The notes under the pieces are model-generated. The model did no database searches. It had not been told where the DNA came from and saw nothing but the letters and a program-made list of their open reading frames with translations. From the NCBI GenBank assembly GCA_033485155.1, contig JAWQJJ010000003.1:1-64000 (forward strand): a DNA stretch of 64,000 nt. Reading direction: 5' to 3'. Both the position numbers and the translations under genes were made by a program. The DNA comes from Methanomassiliicoccus sp. (GTDB lineage Archaea > Thermoplasmatota > Thermoplasmata > Methanomassiliicoccales > Methanomassiliicoccaceae). Below, piece by piece: positions 4,841 to 44,322 of this stretch. Each line of letters begins with the position of its first letter. Position 1 is the stretch's first letter.

Positions 4841-5716
4841 ATGATTCCATACCATAGGATAATCATAGCCACCGACGGGACCGACAAGACCACGCCAGCG
4901 GTCCAGTACGGCCTGGGCGTGGCCAAGGCCATGGGCGCGGAGGTCACCGCCATGTGCGTGATTGATGAGAGCCCGTACGAGAACGTGGCGAACGTTACCG
5001 TATCAGAGGTCGAATCTATTAGATATCGTAGCAGTGCGGGGGCGGTGGAGGCCGTCATGGCCCAGGGTCGAGCCCATGGCATAAAGATGAGGGCGCTGAT
5101 GACCAGCGGCACTCCGTCAGCCGAGATCGTCCGAGCGTCATCCGACCATGATCTTATCGTCATGGGAACGGAGGGGCGCATGGGCGTATCGCACCTTCTG
5201 CTAGGCAGCGTGGCCGAGAAGGTGGTCCGATACGCCCCGACCCCGATCCTGGTCGTTCACAGCGGAATGCGTATCGGGGGCGACCTGCCCATGGTGCGGA
5301 AGCTACTGATACCGACCGACGGGAGCGAGAACACCAGGCCGGCTATCGCTCAGGGACTGGCATTGGCCAAGCTCCTGGGTGCCGAGGTCACGGCATTGAG
5401 CGTCGCCGATCCCGGAGCGGAGAACCACTCCAGGCTCCAGGAGGGGAGCCAGCGGCTAACGGAGAATGATTGCCATGAGGCGGTAGACTACATCAAGGAC
5501 TTGGGCCGGGACCTAGGCGCAATCATCGTCCATGAGGCGGTCGTCACCGGTATCCCTTCCGAAGAGATAGTGAAAGCATCGTCCGAGCACGATCTCGTCG
5601 TCATGGGTACCGTAGGACGAACGGGGCTCGCACACATCCGCCTGGGGAGCGTGGCCGAGAGGACCGTTCGTCAGGCCAGATGTCCCGTGCTCGTGGTAAG
5701 AGCAATGGCACCCTGA
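4841..5716 (+). CDS. Tandem universal stress protein (two UspA domains)
   Basis: A 291-residue cytoplasmic protein made of two UspA domains (about 1-140 and 150-290). Each domain starts with a beta-strand ending in ATDG or PTDG. Each carries the ATP-binding G-x2-G-x9-G-S signature (GTEGRMG...LGS at about 109-123 and GTVGRTG...LGS near 250-264), so both halves probably bind ATP. A GGAGGGG ribosome-binding site precedes the ATG, 12 bases after the MFS stop, making it the third gene of the marR operon. A role in the same stress response is an inference. Confidence 0.9.
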   Translation: MIPYHRIIIATDGTDKTTPAVQYGLGVAKAMGAEVTAMCVIDESPYENVANVTVSEVESIRYRSSAGAVEAVMAQGRAHGIKMRALMTSGTPSAEIVRASSDHDLIVMGTEGRMGVSHLLLGSVAEKVVRYAPTPILVVHSGMRIGGDLPMVRKLLIPTDGSENTRPAIAQGLALAKLLGAEVTALSVADPGAENHSRLQEGSQRLTENDCHEAVDYIKDLGRDLGAIIVHEAVVTGIPSEEIVKASSEHDLVVMGTVGRTGLAHIRLGSVAERTVRQARCPVLVVRAMAP

Positions 5717-42054: not shown

Positions 42055-42522
42055 ATGGATGTCTTTGATGAGATACGGGATGAGCACAAAATAATCCTAA
42101 TCACAATGGAGGACCTCATCGGCCGAGACCCTGAGACTAGGAGGAGAATGATGAACACCCTCTCCTTCCAGATCATTGCTCATTTGGATGCCGAGGAGCG
42201 ATCGGTGTACAAGGCGTTCGAGAATGTTGATGGCGTTCTCCGACCGATGTCTCTGCGGCATGCTGAGGAGCACCGGGTAGCTCGATTCTTGTTGTCCGGG
42301 CTCCGGGATGAGGGCCTTAGCGACGAACACTGGGCTGCCCGATTGCATGTGCTAAGATTGGGTCTCGAGCAACACTTCCGAAGCGAGGAAAAAGAGTTGT
42401 TCGATGCCGCTCTAGACTACTTCGATCAGAACGAGATCGATGCGATGACTCATAAGTTCGATCAGGTGAAGGCGGAGATGCTGGAGAGCACCAAGGCGAT
42501 TCCCAGTGGTAGGTCTAATTGA
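42055..42522 (+). CDS. Hemerythrin (HHE) domain protein
   Basis: A 155-residue four-helix protein with di-iron ligands His11 (DEHKII), His43 and Glu47 (IIAHLDAEE), His69 and His73 (LRHAEEHR), and His/Glu of EQHFRSEEKELF. Such single-domain proteins bind oxygen, iron or nitric oxide and are common in anaerobes as oxygen sensors or scavengers. It converges on a Rieske-like gene 15 bases downstream, suggesting a redox-defence group. Confidence 0.85.
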   Translation: MDVFDEIRDEHKIILITMEDLIGRDPETRRRMMNTLSFQIIAHLDAEERSVYKAFENVDGVLRPMSLRHAEEHRVARFLLSGLRDEGLSDEHWAARLHVLRLGLEQHFRSEEKELFDAALDYFDQNEIDAMTHKFDQVKAEMLESTKAIPSGRSN

Positions 42523-42537
42523 TCGCCCGTAAAAATG

Positions 42538-42858
42538 TTAGATGTCTACCATGATGCAGTCGCCATCCTGCGAGATGGGGTAGGTGCGAAGATCGTCCGA
42601 CCTTTTTCCATCGTCCCATGATTGCTCGACAACATTTCCGGACCGCAGGTCGAACTCCGAGCCGTGGATCGGGCACCTCACCGTGTAGCCGTTGAGAGCG
42701 CCCTCCGCCAGATTGCCTCCGTCGCTCGAACACAGGCCATCCATGGCGAACAACTGGCCCTCGACGTTGGCCAGGAGAACGATCCGGCCGAGCAGAGTTA
42801 TGTTACTCATCTTTCCAGGCGGTAGTTCTGATGCCAAGCAGGCTTTGATCTTCACCAT
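42538..42858 (-). CDS. Rieske-type ferredoxin with a missing His ligand
   Basis: A 106-residue Rieske fold protein. The second cluster motif is intact (CPIHG, Cys62 and His65) and the usual GNLAEGALNGYTV linker is present. The first motif reads C43-S-S45-D where the family has C-x-H, so one of two His ligands is Ser. It may bind the cluster differently or have lost it. A GAGGG lies seven bases before the ATG, and the leader contains the nested hairpin at 42942-43015. Confidence 0.8.
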   Translation of the reverse strand: MVKIKACLASELPPGKMSNITLLGRIVLLANVEGQLFAMDGLCSSDGGNLAEGALNGYTVRCPIHGSEFDLRSGNVVEQSWDDGKRSDDLRTYPISQDGDCIMVDI

Positions 42859-42941
42859 GGTCGATCCCTCGGTTGTCGAATCTCATTCCGTGGACTCATG
42901 TAATGACTAGGGGAGGGGTTGCTTTTTCAAGGTATGGATGA

Positions 42942-43015
42942 GGCGGCCCAGGGAACCGAGATACAATCGCTCAGAATGGCTATGAATAGGGGTGAGCGAT
43001 CGTCACTGGGCCGCC
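42942..43015 (-). ncRNA. Nested-hairpin RNA candidate (small RNA or structured leader of the Rieske gene)
   Basis: Outer stem GGCGGCCCAG (42942-42951) with CTGGGCCGCC (43006-43015), ten perfect pairs. Inner stem ATCGCTCA (42966-42973) with TGAGCGAT (42993-43000), eight perfect pairs. On the minus strand a TATA box ATATTAATAAG at about 43038-43048 is about 26 bases before the outer stem, so a transcript would begin right at it. It then either ends as a 75-90 base RNA or continues into the Rieske gene. Confidence 0.5.
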
Positions 43016-43077
43016 CTTCGGTGTTTGATTCTTCTCTTATTAATATGCTGGGTTGAGGGGGTTAAAACCGTCGAATC

Positions 43078-44322
43078 TCATGTCGGGATAGTGAAAAAGA
43101 ACGTCGTCCCCTTGCCTGGTTCGCTCTCGAACCATATTCTGCCGCCGTGACGCTCGACGATCTTCTTAGTGATCGCTAAACCGATTCCGGTGCCAGGGTA
43201 CTCGTCCCTAGTGTGCAGTCGGGAGAACATCTTGAACAGTTTGTCCGCGTACTGGGCATCGATGCCGATGCCGTTGTCCTTCACAGAAAAGATGAACTCA
43301 TTGCCGGCGGCCACAGCGGAGACGATGATCCTAGGAACAGCATCATGCCGCCTGAACTTGATGGCGTTCGATATCAGGTTCGTAAGCAGCTGACCCATCT
43401 GCTTCTCGTCCCCCAGCACTGTGGGGAGCGACTCAGATGATATCACAGTCTTGGTCTCGTCGATGTAGATGTGCAAGGCATTGAGAACGGCAATCATAAC
43501 TCGATCCATGTCTACTCGGGCGAACTCATTTCCCTGTGTATCTACCCGCGAGTACTCCAGAATGTCTTGCACGAGCTCGCGCATGCGGACAGCCCCAGAG
43601 TTGATGAAGGACATGTACTCCTTGGCCATAGGATCAAGTCCATCCCCGAACTTCCTGTTAAGCAGGCCAAGATAGCTAGTGATCATGCGCAGCGGCTCCT
43701 GAAGATCGTGGGAGGCAATGTAAGCGAACTGTTGAAGTTCGGTGTTACTACGCTCCAGTTTCTTTGAATACTCTTCCACCTGTTGCTGCACCCGGTTGAC
43801 TTCCGTGACATCGGTCACAATAGACCGAAATCCTCTATCGATTCGTCCATTTACGATATTACTCTCGATCCGTACTTGGATCTTCTCCCCGTCGTTCCGT
43901 ACAATAGGTAACGTGTCCACTTGCTTCCCCTGCTCCAGCCGTCGGTAATGGAGGTAAAACGATTCCTGAGATCGAGGCGAGACGAAGCGGGAGAGGGGCT
44001 TGTTGATAAGCTGTTTCCTCTCCATTCCCAATAAGAAAGAGGCCGCGAGGTTGGCCTCCTTGATGATCAGGTTGGGAGTGAGGGTGATGTATCCGACCGG
44101 AGCGAGGTCATATAGTTCGAAATATTTGGCCTTGGTCTCTTCCAGCTCAAGCTGGATCCTCTTCAGCTCCTCGTTCTGTATGTTAAGCTCCTCTTGATGG
44201 AGGCTGAGCTCCTCAACTAATTTTACATTGTCCTCTGCTGATCTCTCTTGGACTGGCTGTCTCTCCTCCAGTCTCCTTTTAGCTTTCTCCCTTAGCTCCC
44301 TATTGCAGAAATCACCCACCAT
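43078..44322 (-). CDS. PAS-domain sensor histidine kinase
   Basis: A 414-residue cytoplasmic kinase. A coiled coil occupies about residues 15-65 and a PAS domain follows (about 66-175, FELYDLAPVGYITLTPNLIIKEAN). A dimerisation/phospho-acceptor domain has His205 (IASHDLQEPLRMI). The ATPase domain has the N box (NLISNAIKFRRHD), G1 (DNGIGID), the F box and G2 (GTGIGLAITKK). No membrane segment, so it senses an intracellular signal. Divergent from the CheB-CheR-PAS gene and near a stand-alone receiver. The TATA box AGTATATATTC is at about 44352-44362. Confidence 0.93.
   Translation of the reverse strand: MVGDFCNRELREKAKRRLEERQPVQERSAEDNVKLVEELSLHQEELNIQNEELKRIQLELEETKAKYFELYDLAPVGYITLTPNLIIKEANLAASFLLGMERKQLINKPLSRFVSPRSQESFYLHYRRLEQGKQVDTLPIVRNDGEKIQVRIESNIVNGRIDRGFRSIVTDVTEVNRVQQQVEEYSKKLERSNTELQQFAYIASHDLQEPLRMITSYLGLLNRKFGDGLDPMAKEYMSFINSGAVRMRELVQDILEYSRVDTQGNEFARVDMDRVMIAVLNALHIYIDETKTVISSESLPTVLGDEKQMGQLLTNLISNAIKFRRHDAVPRIIVSAVAAGNEFIFSVKDNGIGIDAQYADKLFKMFSRLHTRDEYPGTGIGLAITKKIVERHGGRIWFESEPGKGTTFFFTIPT

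Follow-up and report, generated by a model that had tools for sequence, protein, structure and literature searches.

By analogy only, the closest described counterparts of the hairpin studied here are sRNA154 and sRNA162 of Methanosarcina mazei, which it resembles in being intergenic, in its predicted stem-loop and in having a loop potentially able to cover ribosome binding sites. The loop of sRNA154 masks a ribosome binding site, and this RNA is expressed, occurs in conserved form throughout its genus and has mapped targets (PMC5867862). Unlike sRNA154, our element was found in one genome only. Another point of comparison is the archaeal H/ACA guide RNA, which is likewise a hairpin with an internal loop; the hairpin presented here differs from it by a strongly asymmetric internal loop and by the lack of a nearby 3' ACA box. 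The sequence-only reading had suggested an H/ACA-like guide as a possibility. This was not borne out: no ACA box lies within the 40 nt located 3' of the outer stem, the first ACA in the window (the whole 64-kb stretch of DNA that was analysed) being found 40 nt past that stem, and no Rfam family matched the window at gathering scores, with chance-level matches only in a local search. Neither copy of the element carries an RTGATGA motif when the boxes of C/D box RNAs were sought (C box RUGAUGA, D box CUGA). To our knowledge, little is known about small RNAs in this methanogen lineage; what a brief literature search yielded either dealt with other groups or mentioned the subject in passing.

The hairpin sits between two minus-strand genes, encoding a PAS histidine kinase and a small Rieske protein, and a convergent hemerythrin gene comes after the latter. 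The convergent hemerythrin-Rieske pair (42055-42858) recurs, without the hairpin, in another member of the genus (G005, locus L108). The features of the locus, all on the minus strand, are listed below in the direction of reading.

43078..44322, minus strand: PAS histidine kinase gene, upstream of the element (Pfam HisKA, HATPase_c and PAS; paralogue on contig C2)
43037..43046, minus strand: TATA-like stretch ATATTAATAA, putative promoter (sequence and scan)
42963..43029, minus strand: 67-nt conserved non-coding element, the proposed RNA segment, repeated at G000:C2:476214-476279
43006..43015, minus strand: outer stem, 5' arm on the RNA (GGCGGCCCAG; sequence, fold and alignment), nearly conserved in the copy as GGACGGCCCAG
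42993..43002, minus strand: inner stem, 5' arm (CGATCGCTCA; fold)
42974..42992, minus strand: loop, with conserved CCCC and ATTCATAGCC (two-copy alignment)
42964..42973, minus strand: inner stem, 3' arm (TGAGCGATTG; fold), the copy retaining 8/10 pairs
42942..42951, minus strand: outer stem, 3' arm on the RNA (CTGGGCCGCC; sequence, fold and alignment), not conserved in the copy
42538..42858, minus strand: Rieske [2Fe-2S] protein gene, downstream of the element (Pfam PF00355, E 3e-15)

Both perfect stems described from the sequence were confirmed. In the outer one, 42942-42951 (GGCGGCCCAG) forms 10/10 Watson-Crick pairs with 43006-43015 (CTGGGCCGCC), and in the inner one, 42966-42973 (ATCGCTCA) forms 8/8 with 42993-43000 (TGAGCGAT), which on the minus-strand RNA grows to 10 pairs, one G-U included. 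Folding of the minus strand from 42942 to 43015 gave a minimum free energy (MFE) of -34.7 kcal/mol, whereas its shuffles averaged -20.1 (sd 2.9), for a z of -5.06. This stability was equalled by 0/200 shuffles, and the plus-strand fold gave a z of -3.8. When nested perfect stems of 10 and 8 pairs and of similar span were counted, two were present in the 64-kb window versus 0.05 per dinucleotide-shuffled window. The hairpin is thus above chance, but it was chosen out of a 64-kb sequence, and among 6393 minus-strand 74-mers sampled from the window its raw MFE places it only 40th. The second nested perfect stem of the window (5182-5237) lies within a 291-aa plus-strand ORF that resembles a tandem universal-stress-type protein, the family being judged by eye.

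The genome encodes archaeal TBP genes as well as methyl-coenzyme M reductase alpha, and the host, an MCR-bearing archaeon, is presumably methanogenic. It was therefore reasonable to look for an archaeal TATA box. The one proposed from the sequence is suitably placed: the stretch at 43037-43046 precedes the outer stem by 22-31 nt, which suits a start near 43015-43019. Such stretches are common, with 61 matches to YTTAWAWA at no more than one mismatch on the minus strand of the window, and the stretch itself has one or two mismatches, so that alone it is weak evidence for a promoter. A scan of the corresponding stretch in the second copy of the element found no consensus TATA match.

This second copy was found by BLAST of the own genome, on the plus strand of contig C2 (476214-476279), and the 67-nt element corresponds to this match trimmed to its well-conserved part. 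Window and C2 copies are identical at 57/66 aligned positions (86%), with a one-base indel between them. Both are located about 50 nt past the stop codons of paralogous PAS histidine kinases, on the kinase strand, and the two kinases are 67% identical in protein over their C-terminal part. As the kinase 3' end, the spacer and the element form one continuous alignment of 461 columns with 76% identity, both loci most simply derive from a duplicated kinase gene with its flank. A coding peptide was considered and rejected: the ORF that is open across the C2 copy is interrupted by a TGA in the window.

The structure was unevenly preserved between the two copies. In the C2 copy, the outer stem has its 5' arm almost intact, and much of the loop (CCCCnATTCATAGCC) survives along with 8/10 inner pairs; one of the inner pairs has turned G-U and two are broken. 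The alignment showed no counterpart of the outer 3' arm in this copy, and comparison of the two inner stems revealed no double-sided compensatory change with pairing kept. Taken as a whole, the C2 copy had no fold stability beyond that of its shuffles (z -0.2 to -1.2). Its conserved 5' arm was predicted to pair with unrelated downstream sequence at -24.7 kcal/mol, a value matched by 7/1000 shuffles and by 4% of GC-matched genomic segments; beside the latter, this would-be replacement of the outer stem is unconvincing. The stand-alone structured RNA proposed from the sequence gains support in part, since 5' half, loop and inner stem all recur in the C2 copy; the TATA match and the outer 3' arm, which the sequence-only reading stressed, are not conserved.

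We compared the element with its surroundings in the same alignment. Identity amounted to 86% in the element, 65% in the spacer and 42% at fourfold-degenerate kinase sites overall, the latter reaching 62% near the kinase 3' end (13/21 in the last 60 codons). Beyond the element, the next 100 nt aligned no better than shuffled sequence. Against the spacer pooled with the 3'-end fourfold sites (44/69), the excess in the element (57/66) gave a Fisher p of 0.003, and with the fourfold sites of the entire kinase as reference (32/77) p was 2e-8. This excess identity points to constraint on the element, as judged from the two sequences; it may also stem from conversion, local or recent, or from slow change in this region generally.

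The C-terminal half of the window kinase had 19 matches in the genome, and the element was found behind only two of these genes; one match (L074) stops at a contig edge, its 3' flank falling outside the contig. Kinases of this kind are numerous in this genome, with 18 further matches to the C-terminal half in G000 versus two each in G002 and G003 of the same genus. No third copy of the element was present in the own genome, none was found in other members of the genus, and the family search revealed no other locus with it. Across the 146 other genomes of the order, no convincing homologue was detected, and a covariance model built from the two copies (R1) gave weak matches only over the 147 genomes. 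The two R1 matches whose context was examined, in G084 and G012, were rejected as they lie inside coding ORFs, and a pattern match in G008 was rejected as lying inside an ORF resembling FtsY. Among GTDB representatives and viral contigs, no match to the exact pattern was found, in a scan that diverged copies would escape, and BLAST against plasmids and phages gave no match to the element.

The reading that we tentatively prefer, with a probability of roughly 0.4, is that of a lineage-specific non-coding element linked to the 3' ends of two paralogous histidine-kinase genes, a putative small RNA with a C-rich loop. Its transcription, RNA function and target pairing are what we infer. The element would most likely be transcribed on the kinase strand, starting at a weak promoter of its own or forming the 3' end of the kinase mRNA, and the RNA would fold into a stem (CGATCGCT/AGCGATTG) that exposes the C-rich loop. 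By analogy with sRNA154, this loop could pair with purine-rich sites of mRNAs, for example ribosome binding sites. The paired location behind paralogous kinases, the excess identity, the non-coding character, the retained inner pairs and loop and the stable fold of the window copy speak for this reading. Against it count the missing consensus TATA match and the unremarkable overall fold of the C2 copy, the lack of compensatory change in the inner stem, and the absence of the element from the rest of the genus and from the other 17 kinase matches of the genome. A neutral history, in which the kinase and its 3' flank were duplicated, the element is the least diverged part of this flank and the perfect outer stem arose by chance or was gained later, is a less likely alternative. 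The continuous alignment of kinase 3' end, spacer and element is what such a duplication would leave, and the presence of the outer 3' arm in one copy only and the lack of relatives retaining the element agree with it; that the element is better conserved than the spacer next to it and the synonymous sites of the kinase argues against it. A bolder version of the small RNA reading, namely a new trans-acting family located behind sensor-kinase genes, in which each RNA would be the output arm of its kinase and the diverging 3' half would re-create pairing with the 5' arm, appears highly improbable.

Conservation of the primary sequence and not of the full fold would also be expected of a site acting as DNA, where the inverted repeat (CGATCGCT ... 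AGCGATTG) would be bound by a kinase-responsive transcription factor controlling the downstream unit. We consider this unlikely, as the conserved 67 nt exceed the length of a usual operator, the gene next to the C2 copy is convergent, leaving nothing obvious to control, and the genome holds no further copies. The remaining explanation, already raised in the sequence-only reading, is that of a structured 5' leader of about 160 nt controlling expression of the Rieske gene. This gene starts 84 nt past the hairpin on the same strand, and the TATA-like stretch lies upstream, which speaks for a leader. However, the C2 copy is followed by a convergent gene and not by a Rieske gene, and the full leader fold barely beats shuffles (z -1.6). 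Rieske homologues were found in 39/147 genomes of the order, and in the 11 closest Rieske loci outside the own genome, among them G005 with its syntenic Rieske-hemerythrin pair, no related element was present upstream or elsewhere in the locus; a search of GTDB representatives returned distant bacterial proteins only. A Rieske leader is therefore disfavoured and seems quite unlikely. If the element is transcribed, as the small RNA reading would have it, it would add a candidate small RNA to this methanogen lineage and hint at a link between sensor kinases and regulation at the RNA level; if it is not, it is an ordinary conserved flank.

The intergenic region also carries a 12-bp perfect direct repeat (GTCGAATCTCAT), at 42875-42886 and 43070-43081, 195 bp apart and with the hairpin in between. 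The copy at 43070-43081 overlaps the stop codon of the kinase gene, and that at 42875-42886 lies 17 bp ahead of the Rieske start codon. Four such 12-bp repeats within 250 bp were counted in the window versus one or two in shuffled windows.
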